Shown piece by piece: positions 39,626-64,000 of a stretch of 64,000 nucleotides of DNA. The position numbers and the translations under genes are program-made. Origin of the DNA: Marinobacterium mangrovicola (lineage in GTDB: Bacteria; Pseudomonadota; Gammaproteobacteria; Pseudomonadales; Balneatricaceae); NCBI RefSeq assembly GCF_004339595.1, contig NZ_SMFU01000008.1, positions 62,001 through 126,000 on the forward strand, read 5' to 3'. Every line of letters begins with the position of its first letter. The first letter of the stretch is position 1. The notes below the pieces were generated by a model. The model ran no database searches, had not been told where the DNA came from, and saw only the letters and a program-made list of their open reading frames with translations.

Positions 39626-39626
39626 C

Positions 39627-40664: not shown

Positions 40665-40667
40665 CGC

Positions 40668-41534: not shown

Positions 41535-41600
41535 GAAACTTTCCCCAGGAACTTTGCCCAGGGCCGGACACGAGGTCCGACCCATTGCTTGTGAGCTAGC

Positions 41601-42758: not shown

Positions 42759-42789
42759 GTGTAGACTCCTTATTCTTATTTTCGTCATA

Positions 42790-42832
42790 GGCCGGTTGTT
42801 CCAGCGCAGCAGGACCCGGCCGATCCGCTGCG
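42790..42832 (-). other. Hairpin-forming spacer between boxR and the importer genes
   Basis: Within the 108-bp gap, two mutually exclusive stems can form: GGCCGG/CCGGCC (42790-42821) and CGCAGC-GGA/TCC-GCTGCG with one bulge (42805-42832). Neither is followed by a U-tract on the - strand, so a processing or stabilising hairpin is more likely than an intrinsic terminator. Confidence 0.4.
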
Positions 42833-42866
42833 TGTTTATCGATACTCGGTATCGCCTGTTATGGCT

Positions 42867-44196: not shown

Positions 44197-44220
44197 GGTC
44201 TGGCCTCTAATCCGGTTAAC

Positions 44221-45441: not shown

Positions 45442-45472
45442 AACGGGCTCTCTCGATTCTTATTATTTGGGT

Positions 45473-45496
45473 GCCCCACCGGATTGCCGGTGGGGC
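45473..45496 (-). other. Strong hairpin between boxB and boxA
   Basis: GCCCCACCGG and CCGGTGGGGC form a perfect 10-bp stem with a 4-nt loop, 15 bp after the boxB stop codon. On the transcribed strand it is followed by ACCCAAATAATAAG and not by a U-tract, so it is better explained as an mRNA-stabilising or processing structure than a terminator. Confidence 0.6.
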
Positions 45497-45511
45497 GTTC
45501 TCAGCGATGGA

Positions 45512-46963: not shown

Positions 46964-46990
46964 TTTTATTTTTCCTACCTTGCGTGATCG

Positions 46991-48637: not shown

Positions 48638-48676
48638 CTCTTGTCCTCGGTTATTATTTTTAAGAGCGTGATATGT

Positions 48677-48717
48677 AATATAGTGCATGCTTCTTTGATG
48701 TTCCACAATAAAGTGCA
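48677..48717 (-). promoter_or_regulatory. Likely boxC promoter with TGCA sites
   Basis: On the - strand TATATT (48682-48677) is a good -10 for boxC, with TGCA directly before it (48684-48687) and a second TGCA 30 bp away (48714-48717). The same order (TGCA or TGTA, C, TATAWW) recurs at two other promoters of the cluster, so BoxR is the candidate binder; no strong -35 is visible. Confidence 0.5.
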
Positions 48718-48790
48718 ATATGTTTACTTGAAAATGACTAATAGTTCCTATCTGGTCGTTGAGTGGGGCTCAAAGTGGTACCGGAAGTAC

Positions 48791-49996: not shown

Positions 49997-51555
49997 CAGA
50001 GTTCTCCTTGAGCTGCATAAAACGACTGGCCCAGACGGGACTGAACACGCAGCGCCGGCGACAGGCGATAGCGGTCGTCGGCATAAAAACGTGCGGTGTT
50101 TTCCAGCACCTCGGCTACATAGGCCGGGCGCAGCTGGTCGGCCCATGCAAACAGACCCTGTGGATAATTGAGGCCTGCCTGCATCGCATCGTCGATACCC
50201 TGGGCGCTGGCGATTCCCAGGTGCAGTGCATCGCAGGCTTCGTTGATCAGCATGGCAACGGTGCGCATCACTACCAGTCCGGGCATGTCCTTGACGCGGA
50301 TGCTTTTGATACCGAGGAAGTCGAGCAGAGCGTAAACCTCGGTCCAGACCTCTTCTGGCAGTTCCGGTCGGGCACTGATCGCCAGGGCGGTGCAGCTGGT
50401 GTAGTCCTGGGCCAGATCCATCTGAATCAGGAAGGGATCGTTCATCGCCTGGCTGCGCTCCAGCGTGGTCTGGCCGTTCGTCAGCATCAGGCGGGCGCCG
50501 TTGGCAAAGCGGATCTCGCCGGTTTCGCCCTCGGACAGTTGGGGGATAACGACCCCGCTATCCTGAATCCGTGTCACTAGGGCACCGATTGCCGGCGAGT
50601 TGACCACTTCGCGAATCTGGAAAAAACCGCCGAAGCGGATTTCGTCCCATTCCGGTTCCTCTGCCTGTTGTTTGCCCTCTTCGTAGCGGTAGAAGCCACG
50701 GCCGGACTTGCGTCCCAGCCAGCCGGCATCGACCAGCTCTTTCTGTACCAGTGAAGGTTTAAAACGGGGGTCGTTGTAGTAGGACGCGAACACCGAGCAG
50801 GTGACGGCGTAGTTCACATCCTGACCGATCAGATCGGTGAGCTCGAACGGCCCCATGCGGAAGCCGCCGCTCTGGCGCATCAGTGCATCGACCAGGGCGG
50901 GTTCGGCAACGCCCTCTTCAACCAGTCGCATCCCCTCGGCATAGAAGGGACGGGCGACGCGGTTGACGATAAAGCCAGGAGAAGACTTGGCAGCGACGGC
51001 CACCTTGCCCCAGCCTTTGGTAAGCTCGAGCAGCGTATCGATCACCGGCCCGGCCGTGGCCAGGCCATGAATCACCTCGACCAGCTTCATCACCGGCGCG
51101 GGGTTGAAAAAGTGCAGACCGGCAAAGCGCTCCGGGTGTTTCAGTGCCGAGGCGATGGAGGTGATGGATATCGATGAGGTGTTGCTGGCAAGAATCGTGG
51201 TATCGCTGCAGATGGTTTCCAGCTCGGCAAACACCGACTGCTTCACCTCCAGCTTCTCTACGATCGCCTCAACTACCAGCTGGGTGTCGGCCAGAGCGCT
51301 GAGCTCCTGGGCGGGGTTGATGCGGTTGCCGATCTCATCGGCTGCAGCCGCAGTGATCTTGCCTTTCTCGGCCAGTCGGCTCAGGGCCTTACGGATGCCT
51401 GCGATGCCGCGCTCCAGCGCTTCGGCGTTCATATCCACGAGGATCACCGGATGACCGGCCTGGGCCGCCACCTGGGCGATGCCGGCACCCATGGTGCCTG
51501 CGCCGATAACGCCGACGGTTTTAATGGCGTCGGCGGTGAGATAGTTAGTTGTCAT
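49996..51555 (-). CDS. paaH: 3-hydroxyadipyl-CoA dehydrogenase PaaH
   Basis: PaaH oxidises 3-hydroxyadipyl-CoA to 3-oxoadipyl-CoA with NAD. The 519-residue protein has the Rossmann motif VGVIGAGTMGAGIAQ, the SNTSSISITSIA segment, the catalytic HFFNPAPVMKLVEV region and a second 3HCDH domain at the C-terminus, all as in PaaH/PaaC. An A-rich motif lies just upstream of its ATG, at the 3' end of paaG. The gene lies between paaG and the thiolase gene. Confidence 0.93.
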   Translation of the reverse strand: MTTNYLTADAIKTVGVIGAGTMGAGIAQVAAQAGHPVILVDMNAEALERGIAGIRKALSRLAEKGKITAAAADEIGNRINPAQELSALADTQLVVEAIVEKLEVKQSVFAELETICSDTTILASNTSSISITSIASALKHPERFAGLHFFNPAPVMKLVEVIHGLATAGPVIDTLLELTKGWGKVAVAAKSSPGFIVNRVARPFYAEGMRLVEEGVAEPALVDALMRQSGGFRMGPFELTDLIGQDVNYAVTCSVFASYYNDPRFKPSLVQKELVDAGWLGRKSGRGFYRYEEGKQQAEEPEWDEIRFGGFFQIREVVNSPAIGALVTRIQDSGVVIPQLSEGETGEIRFANGARLMLTNGQTTLERSQAMNDPFLIQMDLAQDYTSCTALAISARPELPEEVWTEVYALLDFLGIKSIRVKDMPGLVVMRTVAMLINEACDALHLGIASAQGIDDAMQAGLNYPQGLFAWADQLRPAYVAEVLENTARFYADDRYRLSPALRVQSRLGQSFYAAQGEL

Positions 51556-51559
51556 GGCA

Positions 51560-52345
51560 TTACTTCTTATTATTCAGAAAAGCGTTAACGCGCTCCCAGA
51601 ACGCCGGGTTGCGTCCGGCCAGCTTCTGGCAGCTGCTCTCGAGTTCGAGCTGGGTCGCGAAGTCGTTTTCAAACGCCAGGTACATGGAGCGCTTGATCAG
51701 CTCCATACCCAGCGCCGGACGACCGGTGAGTTTGGCGATCATCTCCTGCAGGTAGGTATCGAACCGGTCGTCGTCCACCGCCGCCCAGATCAGGCCCCAG
51801 CGTTCAGCCGTTTCCGCATCCACCGCTTCGCCGAGCAGTGCTATCGCCAGCGCCCGGGACTGGCCCAGGTTACGTACCAGTGTTGAGGTGCCGCCGGCAT
51901 CCGGTATCAGTCCCAGATGGCTGAACGGGAAGGTGAACTTGGCGGAGCGCTTGGCAATCACAATATCGGCGGCCAGCGCCAGAGAGGCGCCAGCACCGGC
52001 CGCAACGCCATTGACGGCAGCGATCACTGGCACCGGCAGATCGCGCAGGGCGGCTACCAGCGGGCTGTAGGTCTGTTTCAGAGAGTCGCCCAGGTCTGGC
52101 TTGGGCTGACCTTCAGGAATGCGGCGCTCCTCCAGATCCTGGCCGGCACAGAACGCCCGTCCTTCGCCGGTCAGCACCAGAACCCTGAGGCCCTCCATCC
52201 TTTTGATCTGCTTGATCGCCTGTTTCAGCTCGCGGTGCATCTCGCTGCTGAAACTGTTCAGGCGGGCCGGACGGTTGAGGCGTAGCTCCGCTACGCCCTC
52301 CGCTTCGCTGAGAATCAGCGTTTCAAATGCCGGGGCTTCGCTCAT
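51560..52345 (-). CDS. paaG: Enoyl-CoA isomerase/hydratase PaaG
   Basis: PaaG is a crotonase that in the phenylacetate route isomerises ring-1,2-epoxyphenylacetyl-CoA and 3,4-didehydro- to 2,3-didehydroadipyl-CoA. The second activity is what the box pathway needs after BoxD. The 261-residue protein has GEGRAFCAGQDLEERR, AAVNGVAAGAGASLALAAD and HLGLIPDAGGT with the catalytic aspartate. Close resemblance to E. coli PaaG is seen along the whole length. It lies 2 bp after the boxD-type gene and 4 bp before paaH. Confidence 0.92.
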   Translation of the reverse strand: MSEAPAFETLILSEAEGVAELRLNRPARLNSFSSEMHRELKQAIKQIKRMEGLRVLVLTGEGRAFCAGQDLEERRIPEGQPKPDLGDSLKQTYSPLVAALRDLPVPVIAAVNGVAAGAGASLALAADIVIAKRSAKFTFPFSHLGLIPDAGGTSTLVRNLGQSRALAIALLGEAVDAETAERWGLIWAAVDDDRFDTYLQEMIAKLTGRPALGMELIKRSMYLAFENDFATQLELESSCQKLAGRNPAFWERVNAFLNNKK

Positions 52346-52347
52346 TA

Positions 52348-53895
52348 TCAGAGCTCCTCACCTAGCAGGGTGCTGGCGCGGGCAGCATTGGTCTGCACGG
52401 CGGTGCGTACATGGTAGAAGGCGAGGCCGCGCAGACCGCCCAGCTCCTGGCCGCCACCGGCCCGGCCCGGACCACCGTGGTTACACATCGGCATCACGTT
52501 GCCGTGGCCGGAGTGGCTGCGGGCGATGCTGTCATCGACGATCAGCAGACGGCCGTGGCTTGAGGCCAGTTCGGTCACGGCGCTGATGGCAAAGCCGTCA
52601 TCGTTGCTGAATACGGAGCTGACCAGCGAGCCACCGCCGCGACGCACCAGGTCGAAGAGCTGGGCGTCATCGTCGTAAGGCAGTAGCGTGGCCACCGGGC
52701 CGAACACTTCGGTCTCATGCACCAGGCTGGCCTCGGCCGGGTTGGCGCAGAGCATCAATTTCGGGGTGAAATAGTACCCGCCCGCTTCGCCATCGATGCT
52801 GCCGGAATCGCCCTCAAAGACCAGCTCGCATTCGCCGGCGAGGCGAGTGCTGCCTTCGATAGCGGCGGTTTTCTGGGCTGCGCTCACCAAAGGCCCCAGG
52901 GTGACGCCTTCCCGTTTAGGATCGCCGGCTTTGGCTTTAGCAAGCTTCGCGATCAGCGCACTCTGTGCGGCTTCAAGCTGGGAGCGGGGCACAAAGATAC
53001 GGCGGATGGCGGTGCACTTCTGGCCAGCCTTGATGGTCATCTCGCGGGAAACTTCGTGAATGAAGGATTTGAAACCGTTGGATTCCGCATCCAGGTCGGG
53101 GCCAAGAATCGACGAGTTGATGCTGTCCGCCTCGGCGTTGAAGCGCACGTTCTCGCTGATCATGCGCGGATGGCTCGCCAGCGCTGCGGCTGTTTCCGCA
53201 GAGCCTGTGAAGGCGACCGCATCCTGGCCGGTGATGTGATCGAGGATATCGCGACCGCCACCGGCAACCAGGCTGATGGCGCCCGGCGGCAGAATCTCGG
53301 CATCGACGATATCCTTCACCATGGCATAGGCCACCGGCAGCGTGGAGGTCGCCGGCTTGATCAGCATGGGGACGCCGGAAAGCAGCGCCACGGCCACTTT
53401 CTCCAGCATCCCCCAGCCGGGGAAGTTGAAGGCGTTGATATGTACGGCAACGCCGCGCAGCGGTGTCATCAGGTGCACGGCGCGGAAGTTTTCATCCTTG
53501 GTGACCTGCTCGGCGGCACCATCGGTGAGCCAGTGACGCTCGCCCAGCCCCTTGGCTAGCGACGCGTAATATTTCACCGTGCCGATACCACCCTCCACAT
53601 CGAGAAAAGTGTCCATCTCGGTGGCGCCGTTGTTACGGTAGCTGAGATCGGCGTAGTGCTCTTTGTTGGCCTCCAGGGTCTTGGCGATGCTGCGCAGCAG
53701 CTGGCCGCGTTCGGCATAGCTGAGTTTTCGCAGGGCGCTGCCGCCCTCGCTGCGGGCGTATTCCATCGCCTGGCCCATGTCCGCGGAACAGGCGGCAACT
53801 TCACCCATCTCCGACCCATCCAGGGCGCAGTAAACTTTTGCAGCAAGATCGCCGTTGTCCTGCCATTGGCCCGAGAGATAGCTACTGATACGCAT
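52348..53895 (-). CDS. boxD: 3,4-didehydroadipyl-CoA semialdehyde dehydrogenase BoxD
   Basis: BoxD oxidises the BoxC product, 3,4-didehydroadipyl-CoA semialdehyde, to the acid with NADP. The 515-residue single ALDH domain resembles the PaaZ N-terminal half; the base is Glu255 (NAEADSIN) and the nucleophile Cys294 (AGQKCTAIRR). Substrate-specific motifs HINAFNFPGWGMLEK and PATSTLPVAYAM are typical of PaaZ/BoxD and there is no hydratase domain, so BoxD is the better name. It lies 17 bp after the hydrolase gene and 2 bp before paaG. Confidence 0.9.
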   Translation of the reverse strand: MRISSYLSGQWQDNGDLAAKVYCALDGSEMGEVAACSADMGQAMEYARSEGGSALRKLSYAERGQLLRSIAKTLEANKEHYADLSYRNNGATEMDTFLDVEGGIGTVKYYASLAKGLGERHWLTDGAAEQVTKDENFRAVHLMTPLRGVAVHINAFNFPGWGMLEKVAVALLSGVPMLIKPATSTLPVAYAMVKDIVDAEILPPGAISLVAGGGRDILDHITGQDAVAFTGSAETAAALASHPRMISENVRFNAEADSINSSILGPDLDAESNGFKSFIHEVSREMTIKAGQKCTAIRRIFVPRSQLEAAQSALIAKLAKAKAGDPKREGVTLGPLVSAAQKTAAIEGSTRLAGECELVFEGDSGSIDGEAGGYYFTPKLMLCANPAEASLVHETEVFGPVATLLPYDDDAQLFDLVRRGGGSLVSSVFSNDDGFAISAVTELASSHGRLLIVDDSIARSHSGHGNVMPMCNHGGPGRAGGGQELGGLRGLAFYHVRTAVQTNAARASTLLGEEL

Positions 53896-53912
53896 ACTGG
53901 CTCCTTGAGGTT

Positions 53913-54698
53913 TTAAACTGTCTGGTATTTGCTGATGAATCCGCTGATGGCGCCGATCAGTTCGGCGGGCGCATCGCGATGAATGGCGTGGCGGCAGTTG
54001 GGCAGAAGTACCGGTTCACAGGCGCCTCCGGCCTGTCTGCAGATCGCGTTGATCTGGTCGGTGGTGCCGTATTCGTCGTTTTCACCCTGCACCGCCATCA
54101 GAGGCACACGGATGCCGGGGAGGTATTCCTCGATGTTCCATGCCATGAAGTCAGGGTGCAGCCAGGCCTGGTTCCAGCCCCAGAACGCCACGTCCACGTT
54201 GTCGCCGTGGTAGCGCGCCAGAGAATCCCGTAACCCGCCCTGTTCGTAGACCTCTTTGGCCTGCTCGATGCTGGCCACGCAGACCGGTTCATTGAACACA
54301 TGGGCGGCCAGGGTGATGACGCCGCTGATGCGGGGATCGGCACAGGAGCCGGCATGGATCAGCGCGATCGAACCGCCATCGCTGTGGCCCACCAGCATCA
54401 GCTTTTTATAGTCGAGACTGGCCAGAATTTTCGGTAGCCAGACCTCGGCTTCCTCATGCATGTAGCTCAGCGGGCGTGGCACCTTCACCGGGGAGGAGTC
54501 GCCGTAACCTGCGCGGCTGTACGCCACCACATCCATGCCGGTGGCATCGGCCAGTGCCTGGGGAAAGTTTTTCCACAGGGCGACACAGCCCAGACCTTCA
54601 TGCAGAAGTACAAAGGCGCTGTCAGGAAACAGGTAGGCTTCAGGCGTGAATACCCTGGTTTCGTGGCGGCGGCCATCGATATCGATAAACATGCTCAC
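53913..54698 (-). CDS. Alpha/beta hydrolase of the benzoate cluster
   Basis: A 261-residue alpha/beta hydrolase. The nucleophile elbow is VGHSDGGSIA (Ser106), with Asp in QGENDEYG and the histidine in PNCRHAIHRD completing the triad. Related genes are found in box clusters of other proteobacteria, where the product is thought to remove unwanted lactones or CoA esters, but the exact reaction is unproven. It overlaps the benzoate-CoA ligase gene by 4 bp, so the two are translated together. Function is otherwise unknown. Confidence 0.85.
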   Translation of the reverse strand: MSMFIDIDGRRHETRVFTPEAYLFPDSAFVLLHEGLGCVALWKNFPQALADATGMDVVAYSRAGYGDSSPVKVPRPLSYMHEEAEVWLPKILASLDYKKLMLVGHSDGGSIALIHAGSCADPRISGVITLAAHVFNEPVCVASIEQAKEVYEQGGLRDSLARYHGDNVDVAFWGWNQAWLHPDFMAWNIEEYLPGIRVPLMAVQGENDEYGTTDQINAICRQAGGACEPVLLPNCRHAIHRDAPAELIGAISGFISKYQTV

Positions 54699-56290
54699 TC
54701 TTCCAGCTGACGCAGTTTGAAACGCTGGATCTTGCCGGTGGCGGTCTTCGGCAGCTCCTCGACATAGACAAACCAGCGCGGGTACTTATAGGGCGCCAGC
54801 TGCGATTTAACGAAATCCTTCAGCTCGGCGTTGAGCTCGTCGCTGGCCTCGAAACCTTCGTTGAGCACGATGTAGGCCTTGGGCTTGATCAGCTCATCTT
54901 CCTGTTTGGCACCGATGACCGCTGCTTCCAGCACCGCCGGATGCTGGATCAGCGTGGCTTCCACTTCAGCGGGTGAGACGTAGATGCCGCTGACCTTGAG
55001 CATGTCATCGCTGCGACCGGCATAGACGTAGGATCCCTCGTCGTTGATGTAGTACTTGTCGCCGCTGTGGGTCCAGCGTCCCTTGAAGGTGGCGGTGGTT
55101 TTGCCGCGGTTATTCCAGTACATGATGGCGCTGCTGGGGCCTGATACCTCCAGGTCGCCGATCTCGCCCTTGGGTACCTCGTTGCCGTCGATATCCACCA
55201 GACGGATCTCGTAACCGGGTACCGGTGTGCCGGTGGTGCCCGGGCGCACATCGTCGATACGGTTGGAAAGATAGACATGCAGCATCTCGGTGGAGCCGAT
55301 GCCGTCGATGATTTCGGTGCCAAAGGCGTTGCGCCAGCGGGTCTGCAGCTCTGCCGGCAGTGCTTCGCCGGCGGAGGTGCCGATGCGAATCGCCAGCTCC
55401 TCTTTATTGGGGATCTCCTTGGAGGCGAGCATGCCGGCGTAAAGTGTAGGCACGCCACAGAACACCGTAGGCTGGTGTTCGACCAGACGCTTGAACACCG
55501 CATCAGGTGTGGGGCGTTCCGCCATCAGGACGGTGGTAGCGCCAAATGCCAGCGGAAAGCTCAGGGCGTTGCCGAGTCCGTAGGCGAAGAACAGTTTCGC
55601 TGCGGAGAAGATACGGTCGTTTTCGTCGATCTTGAGAATCTGGCGGCCGAACAATTCGGCGGTGTAGATCATTGAGGAGTGGATATGGACTGTGCCTTTT
55701 GGGGCGCCGGTGGAGCCGGAAGAGTAGAGCCAGAAACAGGGATCGTCGCTGGTGGTGGCCGGGCTCTCAAACTGATCGCTGCCGCGCTCCTCAAGCTGAT
55801 GGATTGATATATGGCTGTCGATCCCTTTCTTGTCCGCGATGATCAGTGCTTCCAGAGTGGGGATCTCTTCCAGAAAGGGCTCGAACTCATCGCAGAGATG
55901 CGGGGAGATCACCGCCACCTTGGCGCGGCAGTCCCTGAGCATGTAGGCGTAATCTTTAGGTGTCAGCAGGGTGTTGACCGCCACCGGAACCACGCCGGCC
56001 TTGATGGCGCCAAGAAAGGCTACCGGCCAGTCGATGCTATCCAGAGCACAAAGAAACAGGCGCTGCTCCTGCAGCAGTCCGAGTGAGGCTAGGGCGGAAC
56101 CAAAACGGTTGGAGCGACGGTCGAGCTCGCCGTAGGTGCATTCACCGTTATCGTCGATGTAAGCCAGTTTGTCGCTGCGACCGGCCTGGATATTTCTTTC
56201 CATCAGGTCGCGGGCGGCGTTGTAGATACGCGGTATATCGATTTCAGGGGGAGTCTGCGTGTGATCACACACGCTGATAGCGTTTGCCAT
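54695..56290 (-). CDS. bclA: Benzoate-CoA ligase
   Basis: The ligase activates benzoate with ATP and CoA to benzoyl-CoA, the first step. The 531-residue ANL-family protein has the AMP-binding motif YSSGSTGAPKGTVHIHS, the adenine-binding GIGSTEMLHVYLSN, and the C-terminal lysine in LPKTATGKIQRF. The GSTEMLHV segment is the form typical of BadA/BclA-type benzoate ligases. The start ATG at 56290 is preceded by an A-rich motif. It lies 51 bp after the DUF4863 gene in the same transcript. Confidence 0.94.
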   Translation of the reverse strand: MANAISVCDHTQTPPEIDIPRIYNAARDLMERNIQAGRSDKLAYIDDNGECTYGELDRRSNRFGSALASLGLLQEQRLFLCALDSIDWPVAFLGAIKAGVVPVAVNTLLTPKDYAYMLRDCRAKVAVISPHLCDEFEPFLEEIPTLEALIIADKKGIDSHISIHQLEERGSDQFESPATTSDDPCFWLYSSGSTGAPKGTVHIHSSMIYTAELFGRQILKIDENDRIFSAAKLFFAYGLGNALSFPLAFGATTVLMAERPTPDAVFKRLVEHQPTVFCGVPTLYAGMLASKEIPNKEELAIRIGTSAGEALPAELQTRWRNAFGTEIIDGIGSTEMLHVYLSNRIDDVRPGTTGTPVPGYEIRLVDIDGNEVPKGEIGDLEVSGPSSAIMYWNNRGKTTATFKGRWTHSGDKYYINDEGSYVYAGRSDDMLKVSGIYVSPAEVEATLIQHPAVLEAAVIGAKQEDELIKPKAYIVLNEGFEASDELNAELKDFVKSQLAPYKYPRWFVYVEELPKTATGKIQRFKLRQLEE

Positions 56291-56341
56291 GATTAGAACC
56301 CTACTTATTTTTATATCGTCTTAAACAGGCGTGGCAGGTGA

Positions 56342-56809
56342 TCAGTTACGCGTGAACTCGATAGCACCTTCCGGGAGTAGATAGAGCACAAAGGCTTCGC
56401 CACCGGTGACGGTGGGTTTGTGGGCTGACCCTGGTGGATAGACCTTCCAGCCCTCAGAGGTGCCATCAAAGGCGGCGCCATCGGTGAGAGGGAGGATCAG
56501 GTCGATCTCGCCATTGGGGTGGGCGTGATGAGGTCCGACAACGTCTTTCATCAGGACAATATCGACGCTGAGGTTATGCAGGTCAGCGGACGGTTTGATA
56601 ACGCGGCCAAAACGGATGCCGCCGGCCTCGTGCTGGCAGATCCAGCCCTCTTCGGTGCCGCGGTTGCAGATGGAGAGGAGGTTTTGATACCACTCGCCGT
56701 CGTGGGGGAAGTGGGTGTTCAGTTCGTCAGCCAGTGCAGGATCAATGGTTTTACCGTTGATAAAATTGGCCACAGGCTCGATCAGATCGTGCAGTAGTTG
56801 GGTGCTCAT
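56342..56809 (-). CDS. DUF4863 (PnbB-like, cupin-type) protein
   Basis: A 155-residue protein (ATG at 56809, MSTQLLHDLIEPVANFIN) of the DUF4863 family, whose one characterised relative that I recall is the p-hydroxylaminobenzoate lyase PnbB. The metal-binding look of GPHHAHPNGEIDLILPLTDG and the following beta-rich region suggest a cupin-like fold. It is the first gene after a strong sigma-70 promoter and is co-transcribed with benzoate-CoA ligase, an arrangement I believe is common in box clusters. Its role in benzoyl-CoA metabolism is unknown; the PnbB-like activity is an inference. Confidence 0.75.
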   Translation of the reverse strand: MSTQLLHDLIEPVANFINGKTIDPALADELNTHFPHDGEWYQNLLSICNRGTEEGWICQHEAGGIRFGRVIKPSADLHNLSVDIVLMKDVVGPHHAHPNGEIDLILPLTDGAAFDGTSEGWKVYPPGSAHKPTVTGGEAFVLYLLPEGAIEFTRN

Positions 56810-56855
56810 AGACTCAGCTCTTGTATTATTTTTCTGGTTCGCGCTGGTATCACTG

Positions 56856-56914
56856 TGCAATGTGAATTGATTTATAGTGCATAATCGTAATTTGTGTCAA
56901 TGCATGATAATGCA
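56856..56914 (-). promoter_or_regulatory. Promoter of the DUF4863-bclA operon with TGCA repeats
   Basis: On the - strand TTGACA (56900-56895) and TATAAA (56876-56871) are separated by 18 bp, a near-consensus sigma-70 promoter pointing into the DUF4863-bclA operon. TGCA occurs at 56856, 56878, 56901 and 56911; the last two form TGCA-N6-TGCA, the direct repeat described for BzdR operators. The sites surround the -35 and -10, as a repressor operator would. Confidence 0.75.
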
Positions 56915-57715
56915 TCATTTGCCGCTGTAGCTTGCAGGCCGTTTCTCCCTGAATGCGGCAATACCCTCCTGTTTATCAGTGCTGGAGAGCAGTTTTGCGA
57001 ACTCCTCGCGCTCAATCATCAGACCCTGATCCAGGAGCTGATCTGAAGCGGCATTGACTGCACGCTTGATGCTGGCCGTCGCAAGGGGCGCTTTTTTACT
57101 GATCAGTCCGGCTACTTCGAGACTGCGTTCCAGTGTCAGTTCCGGTTCACAGAGTTCAGTGACCAAGCCGATATTCAGAGCTTCTGAAGCGTTAATAAAC
57201 TCTCCTGTCAGTATCCAGCGCATCGCTTTCGCCTTGCCGGCAAGCTGGGTCAGGCGCTGGGTACCGCCGGCCCCCGGCAGTATCGCCAAGTTCACTTCCG
57301 GCTGGCCGAACTGAGCGTTATTGCCCGCAATCAGGAAGTCACAGAGCATCGCCAGCTCGTTGCCGCCGCCCAGACAGAAGCCGTTTATCGCACCGATCAG
57401 TGGTTTGTTAAGCGAGCGGATTACGGCCCAGTGCTGGTTGCGTGGATCCGTGGCGACCATCTCGCCAGTCTTGTTTGCCAGCTCATCGATATCGGCGCCA
57501 GCGGCAAAGGCACGGTCGCTGCCGGTGATTACCATCACCGCAACGCTGGGGTCCTGGTCTGCCGTTGTCAGTGCGTCGGCGATCTGACCGAGCATGGCGT
57601 TTGACAGGGCGTTCAGTTCCCGTGGCCGGTTCAGCTGGATAAGAAGCACCGCCTCCTGTTGCATGAACAGGAGGTTGGGGAAGCGTTCGGCAGAGTAGGG
57701 CGACTGGGCCGTCAT
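56915..57715 (-). CDS. paaF: Enoyl-CoA hydratase, PaaF-like
   Basis: A crotonase-fold hydratase of 266 residues, with GSDRAFAAGADIDELANKTG, GAINGFCLGGGNELAMLCD and VNLAILPGAGGTQRL carrying the oxyanion hole and catalytic glutamates. It should hydrate 2,3-didehydroadipyl-CoA to 3-hydroxyadipyl-CoA, the step between PaaG and PaaH. A separate promoter with TATATT lies upstream and the DUF4863 promoter begins immediately after its stop codon, so it is its own transcription unit at the head of the cluster. Confidence 0.88.
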   Translation of the reverse strand: MTAQSPYSAERFPNLLFMQQEAVLLIQLNRPRELNALSNAMLGQIADALTTADQDPSVAVMVITGSDRAFAAGADIDELANKTGEMVATDPRNQHWAVIRSLNKPLIGAINGFCLGGGNELAMLCDFLIAGNNAQFGQPEVNLAILPGAGGTQRLTQLAGKAKAMRWILTGEFINASEALNIGLVTELCEPELTLERSLEVAGLISKKAPLATASIKRAVNAASDQLLDQGLMIEREEFAKLLSSTDKQEGIAAFREKRPASYSGK

Positions 57716-57763
57716 AGGGAAACTCCATCACTTTTTATGGTTGTATTTGTGTACGGAAGATGA

Positions 57764-57773
57764 AATATAGTAC
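57764..57773 (-). promoter_or_regulatory. Possible paaF promoter -10 element
   Basis: TATATT (- strand, 57769-57764) sits just after TAC in GTACTATATT, matching the TGCACTATA(A/T) element at the boxC and DUF4863 promoters except TGTA for TGCA. No good -35 is visible, so the call rests on the shared pattern and on its place between the divergent paaF and paaY genes. Confidence 0.4.
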
Positions 57774-57812
57774 ATGTTAGAGTGTCGAATAAACTCAAGG
57801 ATAATAAGAACT

Positions 57813-58421
57813 ATGCCTTTCTATCGACTCGACGGGGTTACGCCCGTTGTAGATCCCTCCTCCTATGTGCATCCAACCGCCGTCATCATCGGTGATGTCA
57901 TTATCGGCCCGCACTGCTATATCGGCCCGCTGGCCAGCCTGCGTGGTGACTTCGGCCCGATCCGTCTGGGATATGGTGTGAATATTCAGGATGCCTGCGT
58001 GGTACACAGCTTTCAGGACCTGACTGTTCAGGTTGATGACTACGCCCATATAGGTCATGGAGCTACGCTGCATGGCTGTCAGATCCGCTCCGGTGCCATG
58101 GTGGGCATGAGCGCCACTGTCATGGACAAGGCTGAAATAGGCGAGCGCTGCTTTGTCGCCGCCCACAGCTTTGTCAAAACCGGCGATCGATTTGAGGCGG
58201 GGCAGATGATTATGGGCACTCCCGCCAAGGCGGTACGAGCGTTGGCCGAAGAGGAGATGGCCTGGAAGCACTCGGGTACCGAGGCCTACATCGAACTGGC
58301 CGATCGCTGCTTGCGATCCTGTGTCGAAACCGCACCGCTAAGCCAGGTTGAGGAAAACCGGCCCAGCATCCATTTCGACACCAAGGTAGCCACCAAGCAG
58401 GACACACTCAATAACAACTAA
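57813..58421 (+). CDS. paaY: PaaY-type gamma-carbonic-anhydrase thioesterase
   Basis: PaaY is a hexapeptide-repeat protein of the gamma-carbonic-anhydrase family that hydrolyses dead-end CoA esters in phenylacetate catabolism. The 202-residue protein (ATG 57813, MPFYRLDGVTPVVDPSSYVHP) shows the left-handed helix repeats, the NIQDACVVHSF region and the metal-binding AHIGHGATLHG, closely following E. coli PaaY. It is divergent from paaF; an AAGGATAATAAGAACT leader precedes the ATG. Upstream ATG 57774 is not conserved. Confidence 0.9.
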   Translation: MPFYRLDGVTPVVDPSSYVHPTAVIIGDVIIGPHCYIGPLASLRGDFGPIRLGYGVNIQDACVVHSFQDLTVQVDDYAHIGHGATLHGCQIRSGAMVGMSATVMDKAEIGERCFVAAHSFVKTGDRFEAGQMIMGTPAKAVRALAEEEMAWKHSGTEAYIELADRCLRSCVETAPLSQVEENRPSIHFDTKVATKQDTLNNN

Positions 58422-58437
58422 TTCGGAGGTGCATCCA

Positions 58438-59466
58438 ATGGGACTCAACACTCTGGGCGGTCAGCCCGTCTCCAAACTCTGCCTGGGCACCATGACCTGG
58501 GGCGAACAGAACACTGAAGCCGAAGCGCATTCGCAGATCGACTTCGCGCTGGAACGCGGAATCAATTTCATGGATACCGCGGAGATGTATCCGGTGCCGC
58601 CGGTGGCGGAAACCGCGGGGCGCAGCGAGGAGTACATCGGCAGCTGGATCGAGAAATCCGGCAAGCGCGACCGCTGGATCATCGCCAGCAAGGCGGCAGG
58701 TCCGGGCCGCGCCCTGGAATACATGCGCGGTGGTCCCAAGCATACCCGAGACCAGTTGAAGGCAGCGGTCGACGCCAGCCTGAAGCGGCTGAAAACCGAT
58801 TATCTCGATCTCTATCAGCTGCATTGGCCTGACCGGAACACCAATATCTTTGGCCAGCTGGGGTATCGCCATAAAGAGATCGATGAAACCCCGGTGGATG
58901 AGATTCTGCGCGGGCTTCAGGACCTGGTGCAGTCCGGTAAGATCCGCGCCTTTGGCCTTTCCAACGAGAATCCCTGGGGCGTGATGAAGTTTCTGCATTA
59001 CGCCGAGGTAGAGGGGCTGCCCAGGGCAGAGACGGTGCAGAACCCTTACAGCCTGCTCAACCGGACCTATGAGAGCGGGCTGGCCGAGATATCCCATCGC
59101 GAGGATATCGGTCTGATGGCCTATTCGCCGCTGGCGTTCGGCATGCTGAGCGGCAAATACCGTCATGGTCAGCAACCGGAAAACGCCCGCCTGACCCTGT
59201 TTGAGCGTTTCGCCCGTTACTCGGGGCCGGAGGCGGTTGCGGCAACCGAAAAATACTGTCTTCTGGCAGAACAGAACGGCTTGAACCCGGCGCAGATGGC
59301 GTTGGCGTTCGTAAACAGCCGACCGTTTCTACTGTCGACCATTATCGGCGCTACCTCACTCGAACAGCTCGAAATCAATATCGGCAGCCTCGATGTTGAA
59401 CTGGATCAGGATCTCTTAAAAGCCATTGAGGCAATCCATCGGGGCTTTCCGAATCCGGCTCCTTAG
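58438..59466 (+). CDS. Aldo/keto reductase, Tas-like
   Basis: An NADP(H)-dependent aldo/keto reductase of 342 residues. ATG 58438 has a GGAGGTG ribosome site at the proper distance; an in-frame GTG at 58429 is unlikely. The family pattern GTMTWGEQNTEAEAHSQIDFA and MDTAEMYPVPPV, the DYLDLYQLHWPD segment with LGLSNE-like AFGLSNENPWG and the NADP-binding IIGATSLEQLE are present. It follows paaY by 16 bp, in the same transcript. A link to benzoate metabolism (for instance reduction of aromatic aldehydes) is only possible, not shown. Confidence 0.88.
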   Translation: MGLNTLGGQPVSKLCLGTMTWGEQNTEAEAHSQIDFALERGINFMDTAEMYPVPPVAETAGRSEEYIGSWIEKSGKRDRWIIASKAAGPGRALEYMRGGPKHTRDQLKAAVDASLKRLKTDYLDLYQLHWPDRNTNIFGQLGYRHKEIDETPVDEILRGLQDLVQSGKIRAFGLSNENPWGVMKFLHYAEVEGLPRAETVQNPYSLLNRTYESGLAEISHREDIGLMAYSPLAFGMLSGKYRHGQQPENARLTLFERFARYSGPEAVAATEKYCLLAEQNGLNPAQMALAFVNSRPFLLSTIIGATSLEQLEINIGSLDVELDQDLLKAIEAIHRGFPNPAP

Positions 59467-59491
59467 GCTGATTCACTGATAATTCCCATAT

Positions 59492-59536
59492 AGCGCCAGT
59501 CCCTGCTTATATCGAGGCTGGTGCTGCTGATTTTTT
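59492..59536 (+). terminator. Probable terminator after the aldo/keto reductase
   Basis: AGCGCCAG pairs with CTGGTGCT (one G-T wobble) across an 18-nt loop and is followed by GCTGATTTTTT, 26 bp after the stop codon. Moderately stable because of the large loop. Confidence 0.6.
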
Positions 59537-59605
59537 AAGTCTTCTGAACTCGTCTCTTTTTGATTTTCGTATAAACCTGAGATTTTTATCCTGCGTGTTT
59601 TATCT

Positions 59606-59643
59606 GTCTCAGAATGAGACGCTGCAATGAGACACCTGTCTCA
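59606..59643 (+). promoter_or_regulatory. Two palindromic activator sites (UAS)
   Basis: GTCTCAGAATGAGAC (59606-59620) and TGAGACACCTGTCTCA (59628-59643) are both perfect palindromes built from the same half-site TGAGAC(A), with centres about 22 bp (two helix turns) apart. They lie 75-112 bp upstream of the sigma-54 -24 element, the normal place for a sigma-54 enhancer-binding protein such as a Fis-type-HTH activator; its gene is not in the window. Confidence 0.8.
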
Positions 59644-59717
59644 AACCGAGATAACCGACATGGATAAATAACTGCAAATTTTTTATAACCAGATGAAAAT
59701 TAAAAGTTTTTACTGAA

Positions 59718-59735
59718 CGGCACAGAACCTGCTTT
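59718..59735 (+). promoter_or_regulatory. Sigma-54 (RpoN) promoter
   Basis: CGGCACAGAACCTGCTTT has the invariant GG (59719-59720) and GC (59731-59732) with the exact 10-bp spacing and the GGCAC and TGCTTT flanks of the -24/-12 consensus. It points to the operon that starts 40 bp downstream at 59775, so the transcription start should be near 59744. Confidence 0.88.
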
Positions 59736-59774
59736 TTACTGACGGCCAAACAACAAATATAAAAAGGTTAAACA

Positions 59775-60671
59775 ATGAGCCGACACACTATGCCAACCTT
59801 CGCCCTCTCGGCGATAGCCTCCTCGTTGCTGATGATGCCTGTTGCCGGTCAGGCCGCGCAGATTGCTACCGACTCGGGCGACTACAGCCCGCTCCCCGCC
59901 GGTATCGACCTGGGTATCATCTACTACCAGCACACCCGCCACGATGAATTTTATGCCTCCGGCGATGAGATCTCCGACTTAGCCGGCATCGAAGAGCTGA
60001 AGACCGATATCGGCCTGCTGCGTTGGGTTCATTACATCGATGTGGGTGGTTATATCGTCGATCCTCAGATCATCATCCCGTTCGGTAAGGTTACCCTGGA
60101 TACGGTGGCTGGTAGCACCAGCAGCTCGGGGGTTGGCGATCCCATCGTCGGTGGTACGGTCTGGCTCTACAACAACCAGGAGTCCAAGCGAGCCTTTGGT
60201 TTGACAGCACTGGCATCCATCCCCATCGGCCAGTACGACGCCGATAAGGGCCCGGTCAATATCGGTGAAAATCGCTGGAAATTGATCACCCAGGCGGCCT
60301 ATGTAACCCCTCTGACCGAAACCTTTTCCCTGGAGCTGATCGGCGAATATACCTTCTTCGGCGATAACGACGACTTCGTAGGCATGGACCGCGAACAGGA
60401 CGATCAGTACGGCGTTCAGGCTCACCTGAGCAAGAGTTTCGGCCAATCCACCAAAGCGGTGTTGAGCTACTACCATGACTTCGGCGGTGAAAGCAGTCTG
60501 GATGGTATCGATCAGGATGACGAGCTGGATAACAACCGCTGGCAGGCCAGTCTGCAGCACTTTATCACCCCTGATATGCAGCTGCAGTTCCAGTACGGTC
60601 GCAGCATCGACGTTGAAAACGGCTTCTTTGAGGACAACCGTTTTAACTTTCGTTTCGTCAAAGTTTTCTAA
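59775..60671 (+). CDS. Outer-membrane barrel, MetA-pathway-of-phenol-degradation type
   Basis: A putative outer-membrane channel of 298 residues for uptake of a hydrophobic substrate. The signal peptide is cut after about residue 28 (MMPVAGQA). The rest is rich in alternating polar/aromatic beta strands (IYYQHTRHDEFYA, NRWQASLQHFITPD) and ends FNFRFVKVF, with the final aromatic residue of an outer-membrane barrel. The phenol_MetA family (PF13557 as I recall) and its usual neighbours are aromatic catabolic genes. It is the first gene after the sigma-54 promoter. Alternative ATG 59790 would cut the signal peptide slightly. Confidence 0.78.
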   Translation: MSRHTMPTFALSAIASSLLMMPVAGQAAQIATDSGDYSPLPAGIDLGIIYYQHTRHDEFYASGDEISDLAGIEELKTDIGLLRWVHYIDVGGYIVDPQIIIPFGKVTLDTVAGSTSSSGVGDPIVGGTVWLYNNQESKRAFGLTALASIPIGQYDADKGPVNIGENRWKLITQAAYVTPLTETFSLELIGEYTFFGDNDDFVGMDREQDDQYGVQAHLSKSFGQSTKAVLSYYHDFGGESSLDGIDQDDELDNNRWQASLQHFITPDMQLQFQYGRSIDVENGFFEDNRFNFRFVKVF

Positions 60672-60766
60672 TAAGGGGTGTTGACTCTTAGCGCGTTAAA
60701 ACTCCCTTACTCAAAGCCCTCTAATAAACGCTCTGCAAACAGAGCTCTAATAAAAAACGGACGCTT

Positions 60767-61315
60767 ATGAATAACCTGATGATAAGCCGACGCAAGTTCC
60801 TGCAAACAGCGTCGATGGTGGCCGCCGCGGTAAGCGTGTTACCCGGCATCAACGCCTTCTCTGGTGTACTCACCGAAGACTCCCGCATGACCGACCTGGA
60901 GCGGCAGGTATTCGGCAAAATGTTGCAGATAGCCCTGCCCACCGACGGCAGCAGCCTTGTTGCTCCCTCATCACTGCCGGTGCAGCCCACGCTGGAGCAG
61001 GCGCTCCTGGCTGGCATGGCACCTCACATCCGTCAGGGGCTGCGCGGCGGCATCGGTTATTTCAACGAGGGGCCGGTGGAGCAGTTTGGTGGCACCTTTG
61101 TGGAGCTAAACGACGCAGACGCGAGCCGCTTTGTGGATCAGTGGGCCGATTCCAATGAGGTGCCGCAGCGGGCGCTGGCCATGGGCCTGAAGAAGCTGAC
61201 CGTACTTGCCTACTGGGCGATTCCGGATACCTGGGCGCCGCTCGGCTACGACGGCCCCGTCTCCGACAAATGGAATCTTCCCTCGCTGGGCAACACGCCC
61301 GAGCCCCAGGCCTAA
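60767..61315 (+). CDS. Tat-exported small subunit of a GMC dehydrogenase
   Basis: A 182-residue protein with a clear twin-arginine signal (ISRRKFLQTASMVAAAVSVLPG; Arg8-Arg9). The mature part resembles the gluconate-2-dehydrogenase subunit 3 (gamma) family, which is exported folded and carries the GMC flavoprotein partner with it by hitch-hiking. The GMC gene lies 18 bp downstream and itself lacks any signal peptide, in full agreement. An A-rich AATAAAAAAC motif is 15 bp upstream of the ATG. Confidence 0.75.
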   Translation: MNNLMISRRKFLQTASMVAAAVSVLPGINAFSGVLTEDSRMTDLERQVFGKMLQIALPTDGSSLVAPSSLPVQPTLEQALLAGMAPHIRQGLRGGIGYFNEGPVEQFGGTFVELNDADASRFVDQWADSNEVPQRALAMGLKKLTVLAYWAIPDTWAPLGYDGPVSDKWNLPSLGNTPEPQA

Positions 61316-61333
61316 AGCAGAAGGTTGTAAGTT

Positions 61334-62881
61334 ATGGCTAATCAGAACAATACGTTGAATATCCAGACCGCCACTGACATCGCCGGGCCAGAGGTCAATA
61401 TCGATGCCGATGTGGTGGTGATCGGTTCCGGGGCTGGTGGCGCCATCAACGCCTATGAGCTGGCCCGCCAGGGTAAGAAGGTTGTGGTACTGGAGGCGGG
61501 TCCCTATGTACCTTCATCACAGTTTGCCGAGATGCTCGCAGTGGCCATGGGCACGCTTTACCAGGATGAAGGTGGTCAGGCCAATACCCATGGTGATATC
61601 TCGGTGCTTCAGGGCGCCTGCGTGGGTGGTTCCACCGTGGTCAATGCGGCCCTCTGTTTCCGCACGCCTGAATATTATCTCTCTCTTTGGGCCAAGGAGT
61701 TTGGCCTGAGCAACCTGACGCCTGAGCTGATGGCCGGCTATTTCGACAAGGTGGAAAAAAACCTCAGTATCAGTGAAAACGGCCCCCAGGAAACAAGCAT
61801 TGGCGCCGAGCTGATCTCCAAGGGGCTGGAAAAGCTCGATATACGCAAAGGTGTTGCACACCGAAACATTCGTGACTGTGCCATGACCGGCTTCTGCTTC
61901 GCCGGCTGCAAGACCGATCGCAAGCAGTCGATGCTGGTGACCTATCTACCCTGGGCCTGTAACCACGGCGCGAAAATCTACGCCGACACCCGGGTGACAC
62001 GGATAATCACCGAAAACGGCCAGGCCAGCGGTGTCGAGGCGCAGGTGATCGATCCGAAGACCAAGCAGCTCAAGGCGAGCATGAAGGTCAAGGCGCCGAT
62101 CGTGGTTCTGGCAGCGGGTCCAGTGCAGTCGCCGATCATTCTGCAGCAGTCCGGCATCGCCAATTCCAGTGGCCAGGTTGGCAAGAACTTCGCCTGTCAC
62201 CCGACCCTGTCTGTGACCGCGGTCTATGACCGCGAAGTGGATGACTTTCACGGTGCAACTCATTCCCTTTACGTGGATACACATACCCTGCCGGAAGAGG
62301 GCGGTTACCTGCTGCTGAACGCGGTTCAGGAGCCGGTGGAAGCGAGTTTCCAAGCGGAGCCGGGGACCGGTAAACCCTATGTCGCCTACATGGAGAAGTA
62401 CCGCAATACCATCCGTCTGATCACGCTGATCCACGATAAAAACGTCGGTGAAGTGCGCTGGAAAGAGGGTGCCAAAGAGATCATCTACGAGGTTGACGAT
62501 TACGATTTCGAGGCGATGAAAAAGGGGCTGAAGTACAACGCCCGTATCCTGTTCGCGGCCGGCGCAAGCTTCCTTTACCTGCCCACTTCCGACAAAACGC
62601 TGATCGAGAGTGAAGGCGATATCGACCGGGTAATCGATGCGTTGGAGAATGAGCCGGCCCGTTACCGCTATGTCTCTTTCCACCCCCAGGGTACGTGCCG
62701 CATGGGTGCAGATCCGGCCAGGTCAGTGGTGAACCCCTATGGCGAAACCCACGATGTGAAACGCCTATATATCGCCGACGCAAGCCTGTTGCCGACCTCC
62801 ATCGGCTACAACCCGTCCGAAACCGTGTATGCGTTGGCCACCTATATTGCCGACCAGATCGCCAAGGCGAACTTTAGCTGA
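61334..62881 (+). CDS. GMC-family FAD dehydrogenase with Cys-rich cluster motif
   Basis: A 515-residue flavoprotein that oxidises an alcohol. The FAD-binding motif VVVIGSGAGGAINAYELA (near residues 27-44), the GGSTVVNAALCFR segment and the C-terminal HPQGTCRMGADPARSVV with the SIGYNPSETVYALATYIAD catalytic/FAD end are present. Unlike oxygen-using oxidases it has Cys182-x5-Cys188-x3-Cys192 (DCAMTGFCFAGC), the pattern that holds a [3Fe-4S] cluster in bacterial FAD-glucose dehydrogenase. That suggests a dehydrogenase that passes electrons on. No signal peptide is seen; its Tat partner lies upstream. Substrate: likely an aryl or aliphatic alcohol (inferred from the adjacent benzaldehyde-dehydrogenase-like gene). 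Confidence 0.85.
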   Translation: MANQNNTLNIQTATDIAGPEVNIDADVVVIGSGAGGAINAYELARQGKKVVVLEAGPYVPSSQFAEMLAVAMGTLYQDEGGQANTHGDISVLQGACVGGSTVVNAALCFRTPEYYLSLWAKEFGLSNLTPELMAGYFDKVEKNLSISENGPQETSIGAELISKGLEKLDIRKGVAHRNIRDCAMTGFCFAGCKTDRKQSMLVTYLPWACNHGAKIYADTRVTRIITENGQASGVEAQVIDPKTKQLKASMKVKAPIVVLAAGPVQSPIILQQSGIANSSGQVGKNFACHPTLSVTAVYDREVDDFHGATHSLYVDTHTLPEEGGYLLLNAVQEPVEASFQAEPGTGKPYVAYMEKYRNTIRLITLIHDKNVGEVRWKEGAKEIIYEVDDYDFEAMKKGLKYNARILFAAGASFLYLPTSDKTLIESEGDIDRVIDALENEPARYRYVSFHPQGTCRMGADPARSVVNPYGETHDVKRLYIADASLLPTSIGYNPSETVYALATYIADQIAKANFS

Positions 62882-62895
62882 CAGGAGAGCAGGTT

Positions 62896-64000
62896 ATGAA
62901 TCTATCAGTCATTCATCAGGACAACGGAAGTTTTGAATTCGCCAACGGCTTCACAGGGTCGCCGTTCGATATTACTGAACCGGCCACCGGGCAGAAGCTT
63001 GGACAACTCAATTCGACCAGCATCGCCGAACTGGATCGGTTGGTTGAACAGACCGCTGCAGCACAGACAGCATGGGCAGCCACCGACTTCGACAGAAGGG
63101 CCCGAGTGTTACGCACCTTCGGCGGTCTGCTGGAGCAGAATGCCGAGTTGATCAACGCCTGGAACGCCCGCGAATGCGGCTCCATCGCCGGCAAGGCGGG
63201 CTGGGAACTGCAGGCGTGTATCGAACAGAGCTTCATGTGTGCGGCGATGCCGATGAACCCCTATGGTGAGGTTTACCCCTCCAGTATGCCGGGGCGAGAG
63301 AACATCTGTATCCGCGTCCCCCTCGGTGTGGTCGGCGTCATATCCCCCTGGAACTTCCCGCTGCTACTTTCGCTGAGGGCGGTGCTGCCGGCGTTGGCGA
63401 TGGGCAATGCCGTCGTGCTCAAGCCTGATCCGAACAGTTCGGTAATCGGCGGCGTGTTGATCGCGGAGCTGCTGCAACAGGCGGGCCTGCCGGAGGGCGT
63501 CTGTTCCCTGGCGCTGGGTGGCGCCGATGTGGGGCAGCATCTGGTGTCTCATCCGCAGGTCAACATGATCGCTTTCACCGGCTCTACGGCTGTGGGGCGA
63601 CAGATCGGTGAAGTCTGTGGTCGGCAATTGAAGAAAGCTGCGCTGGAGCTGGGTGGTAACAACGCGCTGCTGATTATGGATGACGCCGATATCGCTGCGG
63701 CATCTTCATGCGCCGCCTGGGGCTCCTTCCTGCACCAGGGGCAGATCTGCATGCAGTCCGGGCGTCATATCGTGGAGCGCTCGGTGGCGGATGCCTATAT
63801 CGATGCCCTGAGTGAACGGGCCCGGAAGCTAGTGGTCGGCGATCCCTACAGGGAAAACGTGCACCTGGGGCCAATCATCAGCGAGCGCCAGGCAGATCGG
63901 GTGATGAGCCTGATTGAACAGTCTCTAGCCATGGGCGCGCGGATCGTCTGTGGTGGCAAACGCGATGGGCTTTTCATCGAGCCCACGGTGATCGCCGATG
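62896..64000 (+). CDS. Aldehyde dehydrogenase, benzaldehyde-dehydrogenase-like (3' end outside window)
   Basis: An NAD(P)-dependent aldehyde dehydrogenase truncated by the window end; 368 codons are visible from ATG 62896, behind an ACAGGAGAGCAGG ribosome region. The general base is Glu251 (LELGGNN) and the nucleophile Cys285 (HQGQICMQSGR). The PWNFPLLLSLRAVLPALAMG and KPDPNSSVIGG segments resemble XylC-type benzaldehyde dehydrogenases. It is 14 bp after the GMC gene in the sigma-54 operon and would turn an aldehyde to an acid; benzaldehyde to benzoate would connect the operon to the box cluster. Confidence 0.85.
   Translation, partial: MNLSVIHQDNGSFEFANGFTGSPFDITEPATGQKLGQLNSTSIAELDRLVEQTAAAQTAWAATDFDRRARVLRTFGGLLEQNAELINAWNARECGSIAGKAGWELQACIEQSFMCAAMPMNPYGEVYPSSMPGRENICIRVPLGVVGVISPWNFPLLLSLRAVLPALAMGNAVVLKPDPNSSVIGGVLIAELLQQAGLPEGVCSLALGGADVGQHLVSHPQVNMIAFTGSTAVGRQIGEVCGRQLKKAALELGGNNALLIMDDADIAAASSCAAWGSFLHQGQICMQSGRHIVERSVADAYIDALSERARKLVVGDPYRENVHLGPIISERQADRVMSLIEQSLAMGARIVCGGKRDGLFIEPTVIAD

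Follow-up and report, generated by a model that had tools for sequence, protein, structure and literature searches.

Downstream of a box benzoate-degradation cluster, near the right end of a 64,000-nucleotide stretch of the Marinobacterium mangrovicola genome (contig C2:62001-126000; genome of 4.98 Mb in 15 contigs; hereafter the window), the plus strand carries genes for an outer-membrane barrel, a small subunit with a twin-arginine translocation (Tat) signal, a GMC flavoenzyme and an aldehyde dehydrogenase. This gene order, proposed in an initial annotation, is borne out by the reading frames and by the Pfam and TIGR matches. Which alcohol does this set of genes oxidize, and how is it controlled? 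The answer which we consider likely is that it would be a transferable module, under sigma-54 control, for the oxidation of benzyl alcohol to benzoate. The earlier proposal of sigma-54 control, of aryl-alcohol oxidation and of the feeding of a benzoate pathway is supported by its linkage to ben genes, the conservation of its promoter, the linked activator gene and a 29.5-kb block shared with the box cluster. In what follows, loci are coded by L numbers and genomes by G numbers, the window genome being G000 and the window locus, of 20 kb, L027.

In the proposed working of the module, the barrel would admit benzyl alcohol through the outer membrane, while the GMC flavoenzyme would reach the periplasm in folded form, with the Tat-signal small subunit as its carrier. 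There it would oxidize benzyl alcohol to benzaldehyde, the electrons passing from flavin adenine dinucleotide (FAD) to a 3Fe-4S cluster at the surface and from there to the respiratory chain as the presumed acceptor. Benzaldehyde would then enter the cell, where an NAD(P)-dependent aldehyde dehydrogenase would form benzoate, to be degraded by the adjoining box genes. An activator of the AcoR/DhaR type would sense the alcohol or the aldehyde, bind dyads about 100 bp upstream and open the sigma-54 promoter.

Linkage of the module to benzoate degradation

A pattern scan with one genome per species returned 23 loci, and a plasmid search added one further close locus (L042, the only one used of 17 matches, at 74%). 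The close loci number 19 (L027, L042-L057, L062 and L063, L062 being a partial match of 193 residues), of which 18 encode the small subunit, 17 the aldehyde dehydrogenase, 16 the activator and 11 the barrel, the order of the genes varying. The activator is missing in L052, where the contig ends just upstream, in L056 and in the partial L062. Small subunit, GMC enzyme, aldehyde dehydrogenase and activator recur in both Gamma- and Betaproteobacteria. No close GMC enzyme was found in the 95 relatives of the window genome, where the best match was 54% over part of the enzyme. Six distant loci (L058-L061, L064 and L065, at 52-56%) have the small subunit and lack barrel, aldehyde dehydrogenase and activator, and a tree of 24 rows separates these six from the 18 which include the window with a support of 100/100. 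From a reading of the starts of the open reading frames (ORFs), small subunit and GMC genes stand near etfA/etfB-like genes in L058, L061, L064 and L065, which suggests another electron route or substrate in the distant clade.

The close enzyme is present in 18 genomes, setting aside the plasmid L042 and counting G115, which holds the partial L062. Taking benA as strong at E below 1e-180 and boxB, among the relatives, at 1e-100, nine of them have benA, eight boxB, none both and one neither. In the six distant-clade genomes neither gene appears (0/6), and the 95 relatives of the window genome contain benA in 20 cases and boxB in three (one below its cut-off), 23 in total. Fisher tests gave 2e-8 (close-enzyme genomes against the 95 relatives) and 5e-5, values which are too good, since some rows are near-duplicates, lineages differ and box is widespread in betaproteobacteria, as set out in the available part of PMC6449761.

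Physical linkage to ben is a better argument than these co-occurrence values. The contig with the module also carries benA, at a distance of 3.6-15.7 kb, in eight of the nine ben genomes, the ben cluster of L048 being recognized by models; the exception is L045, where benE adjoins the module and benA stands on a different small contig. In Alteromonas oceani, the genes benE, benD, benC, benB, benA and catA, as named by curated models, come directly after the module, BenA scoring below the strict cut-off and the others above it. The window GMC enzyme, which stands beside box, is sister to the ben-linked enzymes of Amphritea (support 94/88; 96/95 for the set of four). Since both ben and box start from benzoate, parsimony favours benzoate as the product and benzyl alcohol as the likeliest substrate. 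In the Amphritea locus L043, LigA- and LigB-family ring-cleavage genes (2545-3929) are found between ben and the module.

Within the genus, the sister species G003 (the proteins of two flanking genes being 98% identical) has neither boxB nor a close GMC enzyme. Nucleotide comparison located one missing piece of 29.5 kb, window scale 37069..66578 (window part 37069..64000), and in G003 the flanks, 92 to 97% identical, are joined from window 37068 to 66579 with 37 bases between. Besides the complete box cluster and the module with its activator, the block contains genes for a nitroreductase, an ABC transporter, a hexapeptide protein and an aldo-keto reductase; the activator gene ends 33 bp from the right edge. 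Since G003 misses both in a single block, box pathway and module appear to have been gained or lost as one piece. The longest direct repeat found near the block edges has 10 bases, and a second, smaller length difference from G003 occurs at window scale 68252-68735. Moreover, benA is present in six of seven congeners (G001, G002, G004-G007), the window genome has box and G003 neither, which would point to an exchange of benzoate pathways inside the genus.

A broader proposal goes beyond the window, and we hold it to be evenly balanced: that the periplasmic, Tat-exported Fe-S GMC enzyme would be a respiratory benzyl-alcohol dehydrogenase in a self-contained module which also comprises the aldehyde dehydrogenase, an AcoR-type activator and, where the host is a gammaproteobacterium, a barrel, and which would have spread among Gamma- and Betaproteobacteria and been joined to either ben or box.

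Enzymes of the module

The first gene (59775..60671, plus strand) encodes an outer-membrane barrel of the PF13557 family, scoring 117 bits against a cut-off of 22, whose presumed role is the uptake of a hydrophobic substrate through the outer membrane. It is followed by the Tat-signal small subunit (60767..61315, plus strand, 182 aa, starting MNNLMISRRKFLQ), which resembles gluconate 2-dehydrogenase subunit 3 and reaches 19.8 bits for TIGR01409 (cut-off 16.7). The twin-arginine RR is invariant in all 18 aligned rows, 13 of these 18 match PF13618 at E<=0.001, and the homologue on an Alteromonas plasmid is annotated as a member of the gluconate 2-dehydrogenase subunit 3 family. Presumably this subunit is the hitchhiker carrier with which the flavoenzyme would be exported.

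The GMC flavoenzyme (61334..62881, plus strand, 515 aa) passes the cut-offs of PF00732 (160.8 bits) and PF05199 (87 bits) and is presumed to be the benzyl-alcohol dehydrogenase. By sequence it is far from solved structures (best 56.9 bits), and its predicted model is modest, with a mean predicted local distance difference test (pLDDT) score of 71. Profile and model both put the Burkholderia FAD glucose dehydrogenase and the Gluconobacter fructose dehydrogenase on top, at an identity of about 20%. Oxidation of a sugar, which these closest structures would suggest, was rejected as nothing seen nearby supports it. H450 and N493 are the residues which we take to be the catalytic positions. In an alignment of 14 loci, with L030 left out, the cysteines C182-x5-C188-x3-C192 are invariant (14/14 rows), and the enzyme is predicted to carry a 3Fe-4S cluster on them. 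In the Burkholderia glucose dehydrogenase, as described in the text available of PMC6719666, the 3Fe-4S cluster is bound by Cys212, Cys218 and Cys222, and the small subunit is a Tat hitchhiker.

The aldehyde dehydrogenase (PF00171; plus strand) is truncated by the window end (62896..64000), the complete gene being L027:6897-8351 (484 aa), with its stop at L027:8351, window scale 64350, in sequence fetched past that end. Its closest PDB entries are dehydrogenases of benzaldehyde and 4-hydroxybenzaldehyde, followed at little distance by salicylaldehyde dehydrogenase, and none among the best 25 of 45 NCBIfam models reaches its cut-off; it is presumed to be a benzaldehyde dehydrogenase. No export signal was seen on it by eye, no predictor being run, and since none is visible the periplasm would probably be the site of the alcohol step alone and not of acid formation. 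The initial annotation had assigned the whole conversion of an aryl alcohol to its acid to the periplasm: comparative linkage upholds the oxidation of the alcohol, and the formation of the acid there appears improbable.

Promoter, upstream sites and activator

Ahead of the barrel gene, at 59718..59733 on the plus strand, stands a predicted sigma-54 promoter of the -24/-12 type, CGGCACAGAACCTGCT, which agrees at 9 of 11 specified positions with what we take to be the consensus, a score reached by 14 of 1000 dinucleotide shuffles of the intergenic region. This score alone makes a modest case, and it is comparison which strengthens the promoter call. In fact, a -24/-12 site scoring 8-11 of 11 lies ahead of module genes in 14 of the 15 loci scanned, L056 having none; the scan left out the near-duplicates L046, L049 and L057 as well as L062 and the distant clade. 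Across 12 regions tested, the shuffle chance of the score ranged from 1 to 76 per 1000. In L042, the candidate at 11361 (score 9) was preferred by position over that at 11266 (score 10), to which the shuffle figure of this locus belongs, and in L063 the scanned region lies ahead of the small subunit and not ahead of its separate aldehyde dehydrogenase. Of seven regions ahead of activator genes scanned alongside, a single one has a coding-strand site of this quality.

The sites are kept despite changes in gene order. The barrel comes first in the window locus and in Amphritea; in Alteromonas the activator gene is inserted after the barrel and both halves have a -24/-12 site, those before the barrel scoring only 8; in Hydrogenophaga and Ramlibacter the aldehyde dehydrogenase comes first and the activator gene is divergent. 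RpoN is encoded in the window genome, and the module is expected to depend on it. Both the promoter ahead of the module and its sigma-54 control had been put forward in the initial annotation; the former is found in the window and in the related loci, and the latter gains support from the linked activator gene and from the persistence of the sites through rearranged orders.

Upstream of the promoter, site A (59605..59621) is a predicted activator site, TGTCTCA-GAA-TGAGACG (TGTCTCAGAATGAGACG), of the TGT-N11-AC type and with perfect inner 6-bp arms. Within the 20 kb of L027, TGTCTCAN{3,5}TGAGAC matches nowhere else, and none of 200 shuffles contained a match. Taken alone, the window dyad is not unusual (mononucleotide shuffles give p 0.29 for the best palindrome of the form 7-3-7 within 170 nt), and site A is supported because the half-site is repeated, the motif search singled it out and related loci agree, not by the single-locus statistic. 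Site B (59637..59653), TGTCTCA-AAC-CGAGATA, is a possible further site, imperfect and weaker than A, with 2 mismatches to the dyad; its spacing of 32 bp from site A would set the two on the same helix face. Two perfect palindromes with the same half-site had been claimed at the outset: the first stands, as to its inner arms, and the second, TGAGACA-CC-TGTCTCA (TGAGACACCTGTCTCA), is present at 59628-59643, its register being doubtful. Since related gammaproteobacterial loci keep TGTYTCA-N3-TGARACA, the N3 version at 59637-59653 may be the proper register of the second dyad in place of TGAGACACCTGTCTCA.

Pooled over the promoters, palindromes at spacers 1, 3, 5 and 7 number 19-22 against shuffle maxima of 11-13, and at spacer 9 they number 13 against 12; spacer 2, the register first proposed, is slightly enriched (11 against a maximum of 10). 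These pooled spacers partly share sites, the shuffles are mononucleotide and the promoters were picked beforehand. Of 25 loci scanned, eight have a fixed dyad (<=3 mismatches) close to the module promoter (L027, L042, L046, L047, L048, L049, L057 and L063), and this dyad also matches away from module promoters in L042, L046, L048, L056, L057 and L065. In Alteromonas-type loci, TGTYTCA-N3-TGARACA dyads precede both barrel and small subunit. Related half-sites occur in Amphritea (TGTCCC...GGGAC) and in an Oceanobacter bin (TGTTGCA...TGCAACA). In betaproteobacterial loci half-sites are found at other spacings, so that a site cannot be defined there. The exact dyad TGTCTCAN{0,12}TGAGACA has no match elsewhere in the genome, nor in the window itself, owing to the terminal G, and therefore no regulon was drawn. 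TGT and ACA repeats 10-12 bp apart have been described for fifteen activator groups, according to the portion available of PMC6615313, and the window-type dyads resemble these TGT-N11-ACA-like sites.

To locate the activator gene outside the window had been proposed as a check, and the gene proved to be the next one, on the plus strand at L027:8624-10546 (window scale 64623-66545). The longest frame is L027:8480-10546, a likelier ATG giving the shorter one. The product has an AAA+ domain (PF00158, 207 bits) with GAFTGA in the window-genome protein and a Fis-type helix-turn-helix (HTH; PF02954, 48 bits), and it would bind the dyads described above. Variants of the contact loop are seen in L043 (GTFTGA), L044 (GSFTGA) and L050 (GAYTGA). 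Its N-terminal half (profile positions 26-252), a sensor half of the GAF type, matches the DhaR structure 4lrx with an E value of 3e-17, no Pfam GAF domain being matched by the single activator sequence. A Pfam scan of the activator found no V4R effector domain at E<=0.001, and an aromatic sensor of the XylR/DmpR type, as which the protein lacks the V4R match, was rejected. Of the best 25 of 31 NCBIfam models matched, none reaches its cut-off. Judged by its domains, the activator is an enhancer-binding protein of the AcoR/DhaR type and not of the XylR type, kinship to AcoR itself being our assumption. The initial expectation of an activator, often aromatic- or alcohol-responsive, holds as to the presence of such a protein, which is of the AcoR/DhaR type and has no XylR-style V4R sensor. 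The sigma-54 activator domain is matched 26 times in the window genome, weakly in the last four cases.

Alternatives, known systems and surroundings

Several findings weigh against the module being a benzyl-alcohol oxidation unit of the kind proposed, or reduce the force of its support. Regarding the enzyme, the cysteine loop has a pLDDT below 50 and lies outside the structurally aligned stretches, so that the 3Fe-4S cluster is a prediction from spacing alone; no multihaem cytochrome c subunit was found in or beside the module, the rest of the genome not being searched for one. The small subunit scores 21.6 for PF13618, below the cut-off of 23.4, and neither Foldseek nor VIA-align retrieved a relative of its fold, a null result which says little. 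The barrel occurs only in gammaproteobacterial loci and is missing from the betaproteobacterial ones. As for the statistics, the near-duplicate loci L047/L049, L048/L057, L042/L046 and L053-L055 make the p values overstate the case, and the single-locus palindrome p exceeds 0.1 in 11 of 17 promoters, being <=0.02 in six. Moreover, the Gallionellaceae bin G109 has neither benA nor boxB, and in all seven betaproteobacterial box genomes (the window being the eighth) boxB is on another contig; since box is also widespread in that class, these rows are weak.

Some of these points would also fit another alcohol as the main substrate (a hydroxybenzyl, substituted benzyl, furfuryl, aliphatic or terpene alcohol), handled by the same architecture under the same control, with benzoate genes nearby because aromatic catabolic genes cluster. 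We regard this as unlikely, though it deserves more weight than the other alternatives. The LigAB genes between ben and module in L043 speak for it, as do the betaproteobacterial loci, which have different neighbours and whose contigs lack boxB, and the promiscuity of known benzyl-alcohol dehydrogenases, which extends to furfuryl alcohol (PMC9162472) and to hydroxybenzyl alcohols (PMC12918735) in the parts of these papers that were available. Nevertheless, two non-homologous benzoate pathways alternate with one enzyme clade, and the block missing from G003 joins box and module, holding otherwise only the nitroreductase, the ABC transporter, the hexapeptide protein and the aldo-keto reductase. 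That this last enzyme is encoded just upstream of the module, inside the same block, could point instead to protection from aromatic aldehydes or alcohols, the benzoate genes merely disposing of the product; this is very improbable, given that the cassette includes a dedicated activator, an energy-linked type of dehydrogenase and a barrel whose family takes its name from phenol degradation. Hardly more probable is a chance origin of the sigma-54 site, with real genes under another regulator. In its favour are the window score of 9/11, attained by 14 of 1000 shuffles, the locus without a site (L056, one of 15) and top scores that do not exceed 8 in L048 and ahead of the barrel gene of L042 and L047, but a site is present in 14 of 15 loci despite rearranged order and the activator gene in 16 of the 19 close ones.

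The oxidation of benzyl alcohol to benzoate under sigma-54, the explanation preferred here, invites comparison with known systems. Systems of the XylR type also use sigma-54, and the XylB/XylC and AreB-type enzymes carry out the same reactions as those proposed, from benzyl alcohol by way of benzaldehyde to benzoate, upstream of a benzoate pathway. XylB, however, is NAD-dependent and belongs to the zinc alcohol dehydrogenase superfamily, according to the available text of PMC9162472, whereas the module enzyme is a GMC flavoenzyme with a Tat small subunit and not of the zinc alcohol dehydrogenase fold, and its activator has no V4R match. In the portion available of PMC6449761, a comparative study of betaproteobacteria, a benzyl-alcohol dehydrogenase (COG1062) and a benzaldehyde dehydrogenase (COG1012) are listed under CatM/BenM. 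With the Burkholderia cepacia FAD glucose and Gluconobacter fructose dehydrogenases the module shares a GMC subunit and a Tat small subunit, the C-x5-C-x3-C spacing being as in the glucose dehydrogenase, but its operon has no cytochrome c subunit and its context is benzoate degradation, not sugar. With the AcoR/DhaR-type activators are shared the AAA+ domain with GAFTGA, the Fis-type HTH and the DhaR-like N-terminal half, while target operon and presumed inducer differ. In relation to box and ben, the module is an upstream extension which occurs with either.

No description of this cassette was found in the open full-text literature (PMC), subscription papers lying outside this scope, in line with the first impression that no described system has the same gene combination. 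If the proposal is true, a second, non-homologous route for benzyl alcohol would exist, whose first step is outside the cytoplasm and does not need NAD; the same upstream module, joined to two unrelated ring-degradation pathways, would illustrate the assembly of catabolic pathways from interchangeable blocks; and enzymes annotated merely as GMC family oxidoreductase would gain a substrate hypothesis.

Regarding the surroundings of the window locus, the box benzoate cluster (42867..57715, minus strand) comprises BoxR, BoxA, BoxB, BoxC, BoxD, a thiolase, a benzoate-CoA ligase, enoyl-CoA hydratases and a hydroxyacyl-CoA dehydrogenase, with models above cut-off for BoxR, BoxA-D, thiolase and ligase. 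The initial annotation had put it 1.1 kb from the module; from its end at 57715 to site A the distance is 1.9 kb, with two genes in between. These encode (57774-59466) a hexapeptide-repeat protein and the NADP(H)-dependent aldo-keto reductase, which is over the NF007912 cut-off and was not found in the related loci. After the activator gene comes a LysR gene on the opposite strand. From ORF reading, the Gallionellaceae bin locus L056 (2431-9530) seems to hold two GMC/small-subunit pairs, the second one divergent, and a 758-aa protein is encoded between them. Finally, in L042, which is the Alteromonas macleodii plasmid pKD02, the module lies between Tn3-family transposases and a methyl-accepting chemotaxis gene stands beside the barrel gene.

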